Shown in pieces: positions 4,450 through 58,903 of a DNA stretch of 60,746 nucleotides. The number at the start of each line of letters is the position of its first letter. Within the stretch, counting starts at the first letter, position 1. A program made the position numbers and the translations under genes. Under the pieces are notes generated by a model. It was not told where the DNA came from. It was given only the letters and a program-made list of their open reading frames with translations, and did no database searches. The stretch is from a virus, in IMG/VR virus record IMGVR_UViG_3300049491_000195, positions 1 through 60,746 of that record, one strand, 5' to 3'.

Positions 4450-5628
4450 TTAAAACTTGGCAACGCTAACATACTTTCTGTAGTCGTTTCCGTTTCTGGC
4501 CCATTGTTCTCCCTTACCCTCAAATACATCAACAGTTCTGTCAATCGTACCATTTTGCCAATGGCTAATCATTCCTGTCTCATATGTTGTTGGCTTTAGG
4601 AACATATTTTCTAACCTGTCCGCAGCATCCTCGACGCTCCACGGAATGTACATATTCTTAGCATTGTTGGCAAACACTTCAGGGAAACTGCGATATGCAG
4701 GATATAGAGTGAGAGTGCCAAATGTATCAGCTTCGCTTACTGTATTACTTACCCAGTCTTGAAGTGCGCAGTTAAATAAAACGACAGAATCCGCTAAAAG
4801 ACGGTAATAATCGTTCTTTTTCAAGCCAGTATACACTTTAAAGTTGGCATTCTTGCTATTTTCTAGTGCTTTTGCACGTTCTACATAAGCTGGGTTATTA
4901 CTCTTCAATTCTGGATGGCCACAGAATACAGCAAACTCTACAAGTGGGTGAGTCTTATAGAACCTCTCAGCCAAATCCATGTAAAAATTCGGCTGCTTCT
5001 CATCATCCCAGCGTGCGGCAAAACCTACTCGCTTTGTTCTGTTTACCAATGGCATTTGCAGTGGAACACGCTCTAAAACCTCACCTTTACCAAACGGTAA
5101 ACCGGTGACATAGATAGGTGCCTTCATTCCTGCAATGCGTAGATGTGCAACCATCTCTTCGCTTGCCACAAGGATACCATCTACAAACTCGTCTACCATC
5201 TGCTCAAACTTACGCATCCAGTTTGCCATACCTTCGCGGTTGACAAAATCATCCGGATCAATGGATTGTGCCAAGCAACGAACATAAACACGTGGCCTAT
5301 ATTCTGCAGGAACTTGGTCGAGGATATACGGTAGACTCTCGATACCAGGGGTGAACATATCTTCATAAAAAATAACGTCATCCGAAGTAATCTTACCTTC
5401 CTTCATCATCTTGATAAGGTTGGCAGTTTGCATCATGCTGTAATATGTGCGTCCGTGTGCATCGAGCACACTACCTGTCACAATTTTCTTGTCCGTAGTT
5501 AATTCAGCACCAGTGACCAATTCATAGTCAATACCACGGCGCTTAAACACACGTTCATTCCAGTCTTGTAATTGAAGTGTGTAACGTGCCTCATAAGACT
5601 CAAGTCCCATGTAAATTAATTTTCTCAT
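4450..5628 (-). CDS. GT-B-type glycosyltransferase
   Basis: A 392-aa protein with two Rossmann-like halves. The N-terminal half starts LIYMGLESYEARYTLQLQDW; the C-terminal half has VGFAARWDDEKQPNFYMDLA and a donor-site-like region with SNTVSEADTFGTLTLYPAYR, comparable to the E-x7-E area of GT-B enzymes. It would transfer a sugar from a nucleotide-sugar donor. Substrate is unknown: phage DNA (as with T4 glucosyltransferases), a virion protein or host envelope are all possible. GalE nearby could supply UDP-galactose. Confidence 0.65.
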   Translation of the reverse strand: MRKLIYMGLESYEARYTLQLQDWNERVFKRRGIDYELVTGAELTTDKKIVTGSVLDAHGRTYYSMMQTANLIKMMKEGKITSDDVIFYEDMFTPGIESLPYILDQVPAEYRPRVYVRCLAQSIDPDDFVNREGMANWMRKFEQMVDEFVDGILVASEEMVAHLRIAGMKAPIYVTGLPFGKGEVLERVPLQMPLVNRTKRVGFAARWDDEKQPNFYMDLAERFYKTHPLVEFAVFCGHPELKSNNPAYVERAKALENSKNANFKVYTGLKKNDYYRLLADSVVLFNCALQDWVSNTVSEADTFGTLTLYPAYRSFPEVFANNAKNMYIPWSVEDAADRLENMFLKPTTYETGMISHWQNGTIDRTVDVFEGKGEQWARNGNDYRKYVSVAKF

Positions 5629-5876
5629 AGCTGCAACCCTTTTCTAATAGCTAATACTGTCAATTCTTCGCCGCTCAGTACAACAGTGTTTTCTGGAGTT
5701 GTTCTAATCGGGCCACCATTCTTAAAGTCTAGTTCAGTAACTACAATAGACTTTCTATTCATCTTTACAACCTTGCAAATTTTCATTCTACCAGAAACGG
5801 CGACAAGCAGCCTCGATTTCTCTGTAATCGGCTGATTGAAAAAATCTACGTATTCTGTATTAGGTTCCGGAATCAT
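5625..5876 (-). CDS. Small beta-barrel-like protein, copy A of a duplicated unit
   Basis: 83 aa from the ATG at 5876, which overlaps the upstream gene by 17 nt. The sequence resembles the 6145-6390 product: both have a QP.. turn, an I-C-K/T-K-N centre and VLSGEE/VLLSGPD near the end, suggesting an SH3- or KOW-like small barrel. With 5860-6144 it forms a two-gene unit repeated immediately upstream (6145-6623). Function unknown. Confidence 0.6.
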   Translation of the reverse strand: MIPEPNTEYVDFFNQPITEKSRLLVAVSGRMKICKVVKMNRKSIVVTELDFKNGGPIRTTPENTVVLSGEELTVLAIRKGLQL

Positions 5877-26736: not shown

Positions 26737-28959
26737 TTATACCACTACTGTTTCCACTACAGGTTCAAAAACATCTACATGGATCTCATCATTGATGCAA
26801 TCCGCATTTGCTCGTCCACCCTTTGTAAGTCTGCCAAACAAGATTTCCTTTGACAGTGGAATCTTGACAAGCTTCTCAAAGAGCCTTTCAAACGGTCTTG
26901 CACCCATCTTTGGATCCAAGCCGTGCTGTGCAAGCCAATCGCGTGCCTGTTGTGTTACATTCAATGTAACATTCTTCGGAGCAAGCAATACCTCAGTCTT
27001 CTCAACTTCAGCGTTGACGATAAGGTTCATCTCAACCAATGTGAGCTTATTGAACCTAACAATGCCGTCCAAACGGTTTCTAAACTCGGGACTGAAGAAT
27101 CGCTTGATCTCCTTTTCCACCGCACCAGAGTTGTCCTGATCACCAAAGCCAATCTTGAGCTTTTCCGCATCGGCAGAACCCAAGTTAGCAGACAAGATGA
27201 TAATGACATTTGAGAAGTCAACGGTCTTGCCCTTAGCGGATGTCAATCTTCCATCATCCATAACTTGCAAGAGCACCGTCATAACATCAGGGTGCGCCTT
27301 ATCAACTTCGTCCAGCAACAATACGCAAGTTGGATTGGTATCAACTGCCTGGATAAGTTGTCCTTCGCCCATTTTGCCCTCACCGTGGCCAACGTAGCCC
27401 GGAGGTGCACCAATAAGCTTGGATACAGTGTGCTTCTCCATGTATTCCGACAAGTCGAAGCGAACAAACTTCACTCCAAGAGCCTTGGCCAGCTGTTTTG
27501 CTGTGTAGGTCTTACCAGTACCGGTTGTACCAGTAAACAAGAACGAACCAATAGGCTTGGTAGGATTACGCAAGCCTGCCTTAGAAAGGAAGATTGCTGT
27601 TGTCAATGTGTCGATTGCTTCATCCTGACCATACACTGCGTTCTTAACACGCGGAGCAAGGTTGGATAAAGAGTCATTTTCCTTCATATCCATCATCTGC
27701 GGAGGAATCTTAGCAAGCTTACTGGCCTGTGTCAATACCAGGTCCTGCGTTACTACTTTTTCCTCTATGAGCTTGGCCATAGCGCCTGCCGAGTCCATAA
27801 TATCGATGGCCTTGTCTGGGAAAAACTTGTTCTTCATATAGCGGTCTGCCAAGTCAACGCAAAGGTCCAGGGAACCTGCTTCAAAGGTAACACCGTGGAA
27901 CTTCTCGTATTGGTAAGCAATGCCTGCCAGGATGAGCTTTGTCTGCTCGGCGGATGGCTGCTCAATGTCGTACTTTTGGAAACGACGTAGCAGAGCCTTG
28001 TCCTTTTCAAAGTGTTCGTGGAACTCGTCGTAAGTGGTTGCACCCACGCACATGAGTTGACCCTTAGCAAGCATCGGCTTCAGCAAATTACCTGCATCCA
28101 TCTGGCTGCCAGTTGTTGAACCTGCACCAAGGATCATGTGTATTTCGTCGATGAACATAATGCAGTTTCCAAGCTTCTTAACTTGATCCAGCACACCCTT
28201 CAGACGTTCTTCAAAATCACCACGGAACTTGGTACCTGCAAGCAATGCACCCAAGTCCAAACTGTAAACAACCTTGTCTTGTAGGGCCTTTGGTACTTCC
28301 TTCTTGACGATCTTGAATGCAAGTCCTTCCGCAAGTGCTGTTTTACCAACACCGGGTTCACCCACATAGACCACATTGTTCTTCTTGCGACGTGCCAAGA
28401 TTTCAATGGTATCCTTAACTTCCTTCTCTCGTCCAATAACAGGGTCGATGGAACCGTCTGCTGCTTCTTTGTTCAAGTTGCGTGCATACATATCCAATGG
28501 GGATTCTTCGGGTTGTCCCGGTGTTCCCTTTTCATCCGACTTACGCAATTGTGCGATGATCTTTTCACGGTTCACGCCATTCTTACCAAGGAAGTAATAT
28601 GCGTGACTTGTTTCCTCACTAAGAATGCTTAATAGCACCGCTTCATTCGTGAGCTCGTTGCGTCCACTGAACACAAGTTGTGTCAGGGCGCGCTGAAATG
28701 TACGTTGCAGGACTGCTGTACGCTTTGCAGGAACATCTTTCAATGCTTCCGGCTTCTTAAGCTCGGGCTGTCCAAGAAACTGAATTACATCAGCTTTGAT
28801 TTTGGCTGGCTGTGCGCTAATGGAGAGAATCAGTTCGTTAACATCCTTCTCATGAAGCAATGACAACAAAATGTGTTCCAATGTAACATATTCGTGATTG
28901 TTATCATTGGCGATCGATACTGCACGTTCGATCATCTTCTCTACTTTCTTTGTACTCAT
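26737..28959 (-). CDS. clpA: ClpA-like AAA+ unfoldase
   Basis: A 740-aa double-AAA+ Hsp100 (E. coli ClpA 758). The Clp N-domain is at about 1-140 (ERAVSIANDNNHEYVTLEHIL). Walker A1 is GEPGVGKT (200-207), with FIDEIH as Walker B1. Walker A2 is GTTGTGKT (477-484), with LLLDEVDKAH as Walker B2, and pore loop GYVGHGEGKMGEG (near 521-533). IGFGDQDNSGAVEKE at about 603 sits where ClpA has its IGL ClpP-docking loop. An unfoldase that docks ClpP is therefore likely, and clpP (44630) and clpS (58022) are in the same genome. It lies upstream of the fibre operon with its own UUCG terminator. Confidence 0.9.
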   Translation of the reverse strand: MSTKKVEKMIERAVSIANDNNHEYVTLEHILLSLLHEKDVNELILSISAQPAKIKADVIQFLGQPELKKPEALKDVPAKRTAVLQRTFQRALTQLVFSGRNELTNEAVLLSILSEETSHAYYFLGKNGVNREKIIAQLRKSDEKGTPGQPEESPLDMYARNLNKEAADGSIDPVIGREKEVKDTIEILARRKKNNVVYVGEPGVGKTALAEGLAFKIVKKEVPKALQDKVVYSLDLGALLAGTKFRGDFEERLKGVLDQVKKLGNCIMFIDEIHMILGAGSTTGSQMDAGNLLKPMLAKGQLMCVGATTYDEFHEHFEKDKALLRRFQKYDIEQPSAEQTKLILAGIAYQYEKFHGVTFEAGSLDLCVDLADRYMKNKFFPDKAIDIMDSAGAMAKLIEEKVVTQDLVLTQASKLAKIPPQMMDMKENDSLSNLAPRVKNAVYGQDEAIDTLTTAIFLSKAGLRNPTKPIGSFLFTGTTGTGKTYTAKQLAKALGVKFVRFDLSEYMEKHTVSKLIGAPPGYVGHGEGKMGEGQLIQAVDTNPTCVLLLDEVDKAHPDVMTVLLQVMDDGRLTSAKGKTVDFSNVIIILSANLGSADAEKLKIGFGDQDNSGAVEKEIKRFFSPEFRNRLDGIVRFNKLTLVEMNLIVNAEVEKTEVLLAPKNVTLNVTQQARDWLAQHGLDPKMGARPFERLFEKLVKIPLSKEILFGRLTKGGRANADCINDEIHVDVFEPVVETVVV

Positions 28960-56397: not shown

Positions 56398-56946
56398 TTA
56401 GTTTAACCTCGCGTTTATTATTTTCCAGTCTATAATGTTCCAAATACTTTTAAGGTATTTCTCCTTATCAGCACCGTAGTCTATTATATACGAATGTTCC
56501 CACATGTCAACAATTAATGCCACATTGCTAACATCCTTATGATTGGTGATTGTTTTGATAATCCCCTTTGTATCTAAATATACCCAGCCCGAGCCGTGTA
56601 TACCTAGGGCAGTTTTTGTGAACGATTCCTTAAACTTGTCAAAGTCTCCAAACTTACTGTTGATAAGAATTTTGGATGCATCAGATGGTTTATTTGATGA
56701 TTTTGGAACTTGAAGCTGCTCAAAGAATAGTGTATGCAGCTTTGCTCCTGCTACTTGAAATTCTCCCTCGCCGGCAAGTGCCTTTTTGACATAATTTTTG
56801 TACAGTGTTCCATAATGCAAGTCAATTGCATCCTTGGAAAATACTGGAGACAGTTCTGTATCTTTTACAGGTAATTGAATCTGATAAACCTCTGTCTCAG
56901 CAGTTACCTTCTCAATTAAAGTACGAAATGAGTTATCGTCTGACAT
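56398..56946 (-). CDS. Fe/Mn superoxide dismutase-like protein
   Basis: 182 aa. Possible metal ligands follow the Fe/Mn SOD pattern: H44 (IDLHYGTLYKNYV), H71 (GAKLHTLFFEQL), D147 and H151 (LIVDMWEHSYIIDYGADKEK). Y52 falls in the place of the active-site Tyr34. The family's second-shell HxxxH is changed to L48/Y49, and the usual NN before H71 is GA, so activity may be altered. Late promoter CATAAATAC gives a predicted leaderless start on this ATG. It could protect the virion or infected cell against superoxide, or serve a structural role. Confidence 0.7.
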   Translation of the reverse strand: MSDDNSFRTLIEKVTAETEVYQIQLPVKDTELSPVFSKDAIDLHYGTLYKNYVKKALAGEGEFQVAGAKLHTLFFEQLQVPKSSNKPSDASKILINSKFGDFDKFKESFTKTALGIHGSGWVYLDTKGIIKTITNHKDVSNVALIVDMWEHSYIIDYGADKEKYLKSIWNIIDWKIINARLN

Positions 56947-56950
56947 AATA

Positions 56951-56959
56951 GTATTTATG
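56951..56959 (-). promoter_or_regulatory. T4-type late promoter CATAAATAC
   Basis: Predicted start on the A of the SOD-like ATG (56946). Confidence 0.7.
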
Positions 56960-57992
56960 GAAAATGGAGGAACTTAGATTTGTTATCGTAGAACCTCTTT
57001 ACACCGACCATTCTGTCAAGTGTACCACGTTCAATGATTTCATCAAGGTATTTCTTAACTTCAATATCTGCTTCCTCTTGTGGAATTTCTTCAAGTGTGA
57101 TATTTGACACAGATATGGTGGCCAAATTGGTTGGATCTTGCCCTAAAATTACAGGGAAGAAAGTAACATTTGCCTTACCATACAAAACGTCTCTATAATC
57201 CACATTTACAGAATAATCTTCGCTTGCAGGTTGGACAAATAGAATGGAGTGAAAGTTTCTTGCGTCAGAATTAACAATTCCCAAGAATTCCGACCTGGAT
57301 GCATGATAAGAATGAATCTTATTTTCGTCAATTACATTCGACGAACCCTTACCAAACAATACATGGGTGTAGGAAGTATCATCCTGTGCAATAATATTCC
57401 TATAGAAGAAAGACAGTGCTGAGATATGATTTTGGTAGAAGGTTCTTAGGTCGAGCTTTGCAGTTGTTTGCAGAATATAATTGGTTACGGCATTCAGCGC
57501 ACTATAACTTTCAATTTCTTCAACAATTTCAACATGTATGCCAATCGCCACTTCAACCACAATGACGGAATTGTAAAACGTTTCATAATCCGATTTATAC
57601 TTTAGGTAAATGGGTTCGTCTACCTCTCCCACAATTTGGAACATGGTGTGATTCTGACACACAAGATATGCCATTGTGGAGAAAGTATCCGGATTATACA
57701 GACTGCGCGGATTACTATTCTGGTTCTTATTTTCCATTGAGTTGGTAATAATCACGCTTGGATGATCATACAACTCTTTACTGATATGAACTTCGTTTCC
57801 GGCGATAATTGCAATCAAACCATTTAATCCAGGATCAACAATCATCTGGGCCTTATTTCCTTGAATGAAAAATCGCTGATCAAAGAAGGTATCCAGGTTA
57901 GTGTGTTGATACTTTTCCTGGATAGCTGAATAACTTAGTTCTGGGTAGTATTTTCCTAGGAAGGCTTTTACTGGAATTCTATTATCGGACAT
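56955..57992 (-). CDS. Hypothetical late protein, 345 aa
   Basis: Beta-rich protein (VGEVDEPIYLKYKSD; IVVEVAIGIHVEIVEEIESY) with C-terminal acidic helix EEADIEVKKYLDEIIERGTL. Some pattern of SufB/SufD-like beta-helix (repeated V-E-x-V strands) can be imagined but I could not match the conserved motifs, so function is left open. A late promoter (58012) and CAGGAG ribosome site precede it. Possibly linked with the next gene, clpS, only by proximity. Confidence 0.55.
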   Translation of the reverse strand: MSDNRIPVKAFLGKYYPELSYSAIQEKYQHTNLDTFFDQRFFIQGNKAQMIVDPGLNGLIAIIAGNEVHISKELYDHPSVIITNSMENKNQNSNPRSLYNPDTFSTMAYLVCQNHTMFQIVGEVDEPIYLKYKSDYETFYNSVIVVEVAIGIHVEIVEEIESYSALNAVTNYILQTTAKLDLRTFYQNHISALSFFYRNIIAQDDTSYTHVLFGKGSSNVIDENKIHSYHASRSEFLGIVNSDARNFHSILFVQPASEDYSVNVDYRDVLYGKANVTFFPVILGQDPTNLATISVSNITLEEIPQEEADIEVKKYLDEIIERGTLDRMVGVKRFYDNKSKFLHFP

Positions 57993-58021: not shown

Positions 58022-58333
58022 TTATACTTCTTCAAATGTTGCAGTTAGCGGGAAGTTATTCGCACGAGAGAATGAAATAGTCTCGATCGTCTTTTCTTCC
58101 GCAATTTCTCTTGTATAAGGAGAACCTGCAATGCCCTGTTGGTTGACGTGGATGGCCTTTGTGATTTCAATGGCATCTTCCACAGTCCTGTGGAAAATCT
58201 GGACAAGGACAAGTATCACGAAATCAAATGTCGTGGTATCGTCGTTGTGGAGCAGGACCTTGTACATCTTTGGAATCTGTACTTTGATCGTCTCATCAAT
58301 TTTCTCGATGACTTCAATATCTGCGGTTGACAT
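58022..58333 (-). CDS. clpS: ClpS-like N-degron adaptor
   Basis: A 103-aa ClpS. The core YKVLLHNDDTTTFDFVILVL aligns with E. coli [20 protein letters not shown]; N30 and D31 are the N-degron amine-binding residues and H62 (KAIHVNQQGIAG) corresponds to the conserved His. The Met gate residue of the family is replaced (F36 region), so specificity may differ. It should deliver proteins with N-terminal Phe/Leu/Trp/Tyr to ClpA. A clpA homologue (26737) is in the same genome. Confidence 0.92.
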   Translation of the reverse strand: MSTADIEVIEKIDETIKVQIPKMYKVLLHNDDTTTFDFVILVLVQIFHRTVEDAIEITKAIHVNQQGIAGSPYTREIAEEKTIETISFSRANNFPLTATFEEV

Positions 58334-58394: not shown

Positions 58395-58817
58395 TTACTT
58401 AATGGCAATGAGCTTAGGTTGTACTTCCTCTGGAAGATTCCTCATCAATGTGATTGATAGGATACCATCTTCGAGTTTAGCATCAACGATTTCTAAGAAT
58501 TCGGCCATCTTAAACTTCTTTTCAAAGTTGCGACGACCAATGCCACGATATTGGAAAGTATCTTCCGCATCCTCTGGGAAACCGTTTTCCTTTGTGCCTT
58601 TAATAACAAGTTCACCCTGGTGTTCGGTAACAGAGATTTCATTCTTCTTGAATCCTGCCACTGCTAACTCAAGTATGAATACATTCTCAGTATTCTTGAT
58701 GATATTGTGTGGTGGATAGTTGTTTGTTGGAATGTGGAACTCCCTGAAGACAGGTCCAAAACCAAGAGACATTGCCTCGAGTTGATCAAAGAGGCGTGAG
58801 AAGTCGTTTCTAGACAT
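58395..58817 (-). CDS. Small heat-shock protein, Hsp20/IbpA-like
   Basis: A 140-aa alpha-crystallin-domain protein. The N-terminal arm is about 30 residues. The alpha-crystallin core reads NYPPHNIIKNTENVFILELA, GFKKNEISVTEHQGELVIKG and LEDGILSITLMRNLP (with the ILSI-type strand), matching IbpA. sHsps bind unfolding proteins without ATP and pass them to DnaK/ClpB. The leader contains a ROSE-like hairpin at the Shine-Dalgarno site, and a late promoter lies just upstream. Confidence 0.9.
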   Translation of the reverse strand: MSRNDFSRLFDQLEAMSLGFGPVFREFHIPTNNYPPHNIIKNTENVFILELAVAGFKKNEISVTEHQGELVIKGTKENGFPEDAEDTFQYRGIGRRNFEKKFKMAEFLEIVDAKLEDGILSITLMRNLPEEVQPKLIAIK

Positions 58818-58890
58818 AATTTACTCCTAATATAGCAAGTTATTTGCGCACCATGCGCGATTTGCAAGGCCCCACTATTGGGCACCCTGC
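58818..58890 (-). promoter_or_regulatory. ROSE-type RNA thermometer candidate in hsp20 leader
   Basis: The ~73-nt leader from the predicted start to the ATG. Its last hairpin pairs CUUGCU (58839-58834) with AGGAG (58828-58824) around a 5-nt AUAUU loop, with one bulged G: the signature U-U-G-C-U / AGGA pairing of ROSE elements that hide the ribosome site. A second hairpin GCGCA-N3-TGCGC lies at 58846-58858, and a third stem TTTGCA/TGCAAA with GCCC/GGGC inside spans 58861-58893. Multi-hairpin layout and sHsp target fit ROSE. Confidence 0.6.
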
Positions 58891-58894
58891 AAAT

Positions 58895-58903
58895 TTATTT
58901 ATC
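58895..58903 (-). promoter_or_regulatory. T4-type late promoter GATAAATAA for hsp20
   Basis: Minus strand, 78 bp upstream of the hsp20 ATG. Gives the leader that carries the candidate thermometer. Confidence 0.6.

Follow-up and report, generated by a model that had tools for sequence, protein, structure and literature searches.

Does the small heat-shock gene of a phage carry its own RNA thermometer, and, if so, would melting of the RNA be the whole of the mechanism? The question is raised by hsp20 in an IMG/VR record of 60,746 bases, which is taken here at its full length as the window and which belongs to a T4-like phage, as seen from its genes for a B-family-type phage DNA polymerase, a clamp loader, a baseplate wedge and tail fibre proteins. 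The gene lies between one for a glycoside hydrolase of family 16 and clpS, and an earlier note had proposed that a ROSE-type element precedes it. Two observations on the surroundings stand apart from this question. The ClpS adaptor adjoining hsp20 (58022-58333) and a ClpA-like AAA+ ATPase with a Clp_N domain, encoded elsewhere (26737-28959), form a phage-borne protease-adaptor pair, and genes for an Fe/Mn superoxide dismutase and a SufBD-like core protein lie near hsp20 (56398-56946 and 56955-57992), so that the neighbourhood is possibly a stress gene cluster.

The hsp20 leader comprises 91 nt of the minus strand, in which GATAAATA, hairpin I, hairpin II and the Shine-Dalgarno (SD) hairpin follow one another in that order, and the AUG begins at 58817. 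CUUGCU, AGGAG and a bulged G do stand just before the hsp20 ATG, as had been claimed, and the two further hairpins said to precede them are predicted at 58894-58860 and 58858-58846. The features are as follows.

58395..58817, minus strand: hsp20 coding sequence, 140 aa (Pfam HSP20, E 5.9e-15)
58823..58840, minus strand: SD hairpin, 3'-proximal, in the ROSE register (from sequence, the fold of the relative L553 and phage-wide conservation)
58834..58839, minus strand: anti-SD CUUGCU with its bulged G at 58836 (from sequence; core identical to that of P. putida ibpA, PMC3669281)
58824..58828, minus strand: Shine-Dalgarno AGGAG (from sequence)
58860..58894, minus strand: hairpin I, a long stable stem with a bulged G at 58883 (predicted fold, kept in L553)
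58846..58858, minus strand: hairpin II, GCGCA-UGG-UGCGC (predicted), between hairpin I and the SD hairpin
58816..58844, minus strand: rival register UUGCU/AGUAA plus AUAA/UUAU, with the start codon paired (nearest-neighbour model)
58896..58903, minus strand: GATAAATA, a box resembling T4-like late promoters, placed 12 nt before the bulged G of hairpin I and conserved in L553

In the ROSE register the SD hairpin is built from the pairs A-U, C-G, U-A and U.G, the bulged G, and the pairs C-G and U-A, closed by the loop AUAUU. Hairpin I reads ..GGU[G]CCCA-AUAG-UGGG-GCC.., and its bulged-G core is that of Rfam ROSE_3 and of E. coli ibpA hairpin I. ROSE elements are recognised by U(U/C)GCU with a bulged G opposite the SD, by a small heat-shock (sHsp) gene downstream and by at least two hairpins (PMC3669281; PMC11342760 for the anti-SD motif). 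The window leader has U(U/C)GCU opposite the SD in the 3'-proximal hairpin, a bulged G in the anti-SD (G58836 in the ROSE register, a position at which the control scans given below proved base-specific) and three hairpins, within the range of two to four, before a small heat-shock gene. It does not meet the criterion of a FourU thermometer, four consecutive U opposite the SD, its anti-SD being CUUGCU.

Such an arrangement could be an ordinary ribosome-binding site that resembles ROSE by chance, or the terminator of the upstream gene. One motif match in 60 kb is not impossible: CU(C/U)GCU-N2-10-AGGAG occurs in the window only at hsp20, with 0.33 occurrences expected by chance and 0.10 with an ATG in place. 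A terminator is contradicted by the letters after hairpin I, AAAUCGCGC, which contain no U run. The 119-nt region folds better than 199 of 200 shuffled sequences (z = -2.88).

Which pairs form in the SD hairpin is less easily settled. For the window, nearest-neighbour energies prefer the rival register by about 3-4.5 kcal/mol (about 3 at 37 °C, 4.3 at 20 °C), with the AUG paired and AGG in the loop, and in that register the predicted exposure of the AUG is 2% at 20 °C and about 60% at 50 °C. Because the rival register pairs the start codon, either fold would block initiation. The energy model does not include the non-canonical pairs of ROSE elements. With it, the ROSE register is the dominant predicted fold at 20 °C in 18% of CUUGCU-type leaders, as against 87% of CUCGCU types, and predicted exposure of the SD rises between 20 and 42 °C by a mean of 0.08, compared with 0.04 in controls, so that melting curves are weakly informative. 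The closest relative, L553, was found by a scan with a window-like pattern; its Hsp20 protein is 62% and the surrounding DNA about 78% identical to that of the window. The leader is the best conserved part (87%; the hsp20 coding sequence has 70% and the neighbouring gene 82%), and the three hairpins, the ROSE pairing and the GATAAATA box are all retained, with hairpin II differing in its loop alone. When the SD hairpin of L553 is folded by itself, the ROSE pairing has the lowest energy, and the rival register lacks an intact outer helix in that genome, so that comparison favours the pairing of CUUGCU with AGGAG put forward in the earlier note, even though it is not the nearest-neighbour minimum in the window itself.

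The association of the motif with one type of gene can be observed directly. IMG/VR viral contigs were scanned by motif only, as CU(C/U)GCUU-loop-AAGGAGA and without any protein input; the totals of such scans are lower bounds (at least the numbers found), and the counts refer to the matches listed. Among the matches listed, an HSP20 gene lies downstream of 92 of the 121 CUCGCUU sites and 89 of the 123 CUUGCUU sites, and control scans found none, again among the matches listed, when the bulged G of CUCGCUU was replaced by A (CUCACUU, 0/121) or the motif was scrambled (0/120). When phage records were instead selected by protein, UYGCU was found before the SD and no more than 45 nt from the start in 17 of 18 (one contaminated record left out), a set that includes cyanophages, Pelagibacter phages, the Methylophilales phage Melnitz, the Sinorhizobium phage Phosso and a marine single-cell virus. 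The exception is the P. aeruginosa phage PAC2, with UUGCG. Campylobacter phage A11a (L164, MG065691.1, 73530-75101, marked UNVERIFIED) was excluded: its hsp20 leader has exactly the sequence of the E. coli ibpA leader, and DNA of the host or of a contaminant is probably present in the record. As a separate observation, PAC2 (L166) combines the degenerate leader motif CUUGCG with an Hsp20 that has K at the position of IbpA R93, which fits a loss of self-binding, as a single case.

The phage groups that have the element are cyanophages, Pelagibacter, Methylophilales and rhizobial phages and large freshwater phages, and on the strength of these genome comparisons it is a widespread phage family rather than a single case. 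Hairpin II is absent from most of the other phage elements. At least 122 of 203 phage elements are preceded by a late-promoter or TATAATTA-like box, in most cases with a spacing of 7-12 nt to the bulged G, and this near-fixed distance suggests that the leader probably begins at hairpin I, the use of the promoter being inferred.

Conservation of the structure is likewise observed and extends to compensatory change. The outer pairs 4 and 5 of hairpin I form in 167 and 134 of 174 distinct hairpins, with shuffled controls giving 77 and 66 on average and at most 99 and 85; three pairs were required by the search itself, and only pairs 4 to 6 are evidential. Whole-leader alignment by MAFFT was misregistered, and a length-matched seed and covariance models were used instead; in the model-fitted alignment of 77 leaders 98.9% of cells are paired, with 74 double changes against 15.6 in shuffled alignments. 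Natural variants of the SD stem also compensate, as in S-RSM4 (GUC[G]CUU..AAGGAC), HTVC103P (AUC[G]CUU..AAGGAU) and L008 (AGAC[G]CU..AGGUCU). Stem covariation, the absence of which had been named in advance as grounds for refutation, is thus present both in hairpin I and in these SD stems. A phage model built without the window and run without filters (R2) returned the window leader as its top match in the window (14.7 bits, E 0.023). The first phage model had missed it in a joint search of 0.75 Mb (E 1), because of the extra hairpin of the window. In alphaproteobacterial genomes R2 gave matches, mostly weak, in only 6 of 76, and bacterial leaders were therefore read from sHsp genes found by protein.

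Gene specificity, covariation and the conservation in L553 all speak against a chance resemblance, and the phage-wide association with HSP20 led us to reject both that reading and the terminator as very improbable. The proposal of a ROSE-type element before a phage sHsp gene is borne out by the hallmarks, the HSP20 specificity and the stem covariation and, as far as sequence comparison can decide, the element before the window hsp20 is real.

Its nearest known counterparts are bacterial. The core of the ROSE element of P. putida ibpA, a proven thermometer that is sufficient in vitro, consists of the same bases as that of the window (PMC3669281), and the ROSE-like leaders of Pseudomonas ibpA share with it CUUGCU opposite the SD, the U.G wobble, the bulged G, a stable upstream hairpin I and the sHsp gene (PMC3669281). 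The window differs in that it is a phage genome, has a late-type promoter box instead of a sigma-32 one and an extra middle hairpin, and comes without temperature data. The E. coli ibpA and ibpB leaders (Rfam ROSE_2, which our search confirmed for the E. coli leader) carry the bulged G in upstream hairpins as well as in the SD hairpin (in ibpA, in each of the two upstream ones), but are unrelated in sequence outside the core. Hairpin I has a bulged G at the same place, stem-Y[G]CC-loop-GG, in ROSE_3, in the 19 alphaproteobacterial sHsp leaders that could be read and in E. coli ibpA and ibpB alike. The Rfam family ROSE_3 (RF02523) has in common with the window the bulge position and the hairpin I core, GAU[G]CC..GGGUC, and its match ends at the AUG; it scores the window leader, in register with the AUG, at 17.1 bits where the gathering score is 43. 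In phages Melnitz (34.1 bits, E 1.6e-6) and S-SM2 (24.9 bits, E 5e-4) its best match falls at hsp20, with both scores below 43, and at the Rfam gathering level no ROSE element came up, whether in the window or among 20 phage loci. As the gathering thresholds of the Rfam ROSE families (RF00435, RF01832, RF02523) are not reached, the window leader is not filed as a member.

ROSE elements have previously been described for bacterial small heat-shock genes; as inferred from motif and fold, a ROSE-type family exists in phages too, before hsp20 and also before dnaK. Phage RNA thermometers, proposed or shown, include those of lambda cIII and SPbeta blyA (a fourU element, PMC10586365) and a sigma-70 fourU (PMC11182007). 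All three fall outside the ROSE type and none governs a chaperone, unlike the window element, and lambda cIII closes on warming. The open-access literature yielded only these three, in agreement with the earlier note's view that phage thermometers of the ROSE kind are little described; no earlier phage ROSE element was found there (subscription journals and preprints being outside the scope), and neither leaders nor thermometers are brought up in the open-access papers on phage Hsp20.

The motif is not confined to hsp20. At 80 dnaK loci found by protein, most dnaK leaders contain the element, and a second copy precedes the hsp20 gene that follows. An IMG/VR contig (L257:10696-12700), the phage origin of which was not confirmed by PHROGs matches, carries groES with a ROSE-type leader, then groEL and hsp20. 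Two-hairpin ROSE-type leaders are also found on phage contigs before proteins of 65-90 aa without a Pfam family (L116:6319-6528, L149:10512-10718, L183:2534-2803, L233:4207-4401 and L088:744-968). By eye, these small proteins are phasin-like. Separately, a gene for an AhpC-type peroxiredoxin follows CUCGCUU-AAC-AAGGAG in a locus with a GOLLD RNA and many tRNAs (L042:1910-2470 and 5247-5710).

In a set of the phages that have both dnaK and hsp20, the bulged base is A in the SD hairpin and A in hairpin I as well. A scan with CUUACUU-loop-AAGGAGA listed 126 sites, 11 of them with HSP20 downstream and 10 with dnaK, and hairpin I has a bulged A in each of these 21 leaders. This co-switch is observed over the leaders as a whole: both bulges are G in 256 and A in 57, with nine discordant. 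Eight of the nine were judged by eye to be artefacts of parsing, in which a second CUYNCU closer to the SD had been picked up or an unrelated hairpin further upstream mistaken for hairpin I. The only genuinely mixed leader is that of L827 dnaK (L711 has the same sequence type), with A in hairpin I and G in the SD hairpin; the hsp20 leader of L827 is A/A, its dnaK falls among the G types on the tree, and the mixed state is possibly a recent further switch or a switch in progress. The association has a Fisher value of 3e-52, which ignores descent, and it is absent from non-chaperone leaders with similar letters (18 cases, odds 0.9).

The leader may nevertheless be a purely intrinsic thermometer, in which the SD hairpin melts unaided by any protein reader and hairpin I stabilises the 5' end or guides folding. 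The hallmark ROSE core, which suffices in vitro in P. putida (PMC3669281), favours such a reading, and all of the anatomy is compatible with it. However, melting of one hairpin does not call for another with an identical bulged base, so that intrinsic melting leaves the matching unexplained and gives no reason why the bulges of hairpin I and the SD hairpin should change in step in the hsp20 and dnaK leaders of the same phages. The in-step change suggests that melting is not the whole mechanism, and we regard the intrinsic thermometer as possible without favouring it.

Alternatively, the matching could be an accident of descent, with dnaK and hsp20 leaders duplicated or exchanging sequence and the A types inheriting one ancestral change. 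The switches are indeed few: the DnaK tree shows at least three, of which well-supported branches force two, and the Hsp20 tree three, of which one is forced; and there is the one discordant leader, the dnaK leader of L827 and L711. But every hairpin of a lineage would have to change together while the stems diverge widely, and the hairpin I stems of dnaK and hsp20 differ even within one phage. Common descent alone is in our judgement an unlikely cause of the matching bulges.

If neither melting nor descent accounts for the paired bulge, a protein that reads both hairpins becomes a candidate explanation, and its identity can only be inferred. In E. coli, the ibpA leader is bound by IbpA itself, and translation stays repressed until aggregates have titrated the protein (PMC10474464). 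For this RNA binding R93 is essential, and K at that position abolishes it, while the positions of R97 and K98 require a cationic residue and that of Y34 an aromatic one (PMC10474464). By alignment, Y34, A54, R96, K100 and K101 of the window Hsp20 correspond to Y34, A54, R93, R97 and K98 of IbpA, so that the protein meets the IbpA-type residue criterion (Y34, R96, K100, K101). Phage Hsp20 retains the equivalents of Y34 and R93, and R occupies the R93 position in most of the phage proteins (G type, 201 of 221; A type, 30 of 31). Counting against Hsp20 as the reader, 17 G-type proteins have K there, and K98 is not conserved. Residue 54 separates the bulge types best: it is A in 217 of 221 G-type proteins, T or S in 31 of 31 A-type proteins and S in L827. 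With so few bulge switches, residue 54 as the determinant is a lead, not a proof. Without binding data for any phage Hsp20, the inference that it is the trans-acting reader of the leader remains tentative, its chances approaching but not reaching even.

The leader could also be read by a protein other than Hsp20, for instance by a repressor of translation, from phage or host, such as RegA. The regA gene lies just upstream of hsp20 in several cyanophages, adjoining it in S-PM2, S-SM2, S-RSM4, S-CRM01, S-CAM1 and P-TIM68. Bacterial sHsp genes without phage genes nonetheless have the double bulged-G leader, as does E. coli ibpA, for which the known binder is IbpA itself, and a reader other than Hsp20 seems to us improbable.

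We therefore return to the hsp20 leader as a ROSE-type translational switch that is opened by heat, with a closed state that is probably also stabilised by a reader in trans, for which Hsp20 is the best candidate. We consider this reading likely, in the absence of temperature, probing or binding data. A phage late-type promoter would give a transcript starting at hairpin I, and in this transcript the 3'-proximal hairpin would sequester the SD in a weak stem with a bulged purine. Warming would open this hairpin and Hsp20 would be made, a base mechanism that is inferred from the class of element. Since both bulges must match (G/G or A/A), the closed state would probably also be stabilised by a trans-acting reader, and phage Hsp20, like IbpA in E. 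coli, may bind the leader and be released when titrated by unfolded protein. Phages differ from E. coli in having the additional A-bulge type and in the extension of the element to dnaK. A wider proposal, which we hold as a hypothesis that could well fail, is that of a post-transcriptional heat-shock regulon in phages, in which hsp20, dnaK and other stress genes would have leaders marked by a code of bulged purines in two hairpins (G/G or A/A), with phage Hsp20 as its reader, residue 54 co-evolving with the base and the G form underlying bacterial ROSE.

If the switch operates as proposed, chaperone output at the time of infection would be tied to temperature or protein damage. The paired bulge also bears on how IbpA recognises its mRNA and on the role of the upstream hairpins of ROSE elements; both questions could now be approached by simply measuring binding, and residue 54 is a possible determinant. 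Should the wider proposal be true, ROSE would be a joint thermometer and chaperone-responsive operator.
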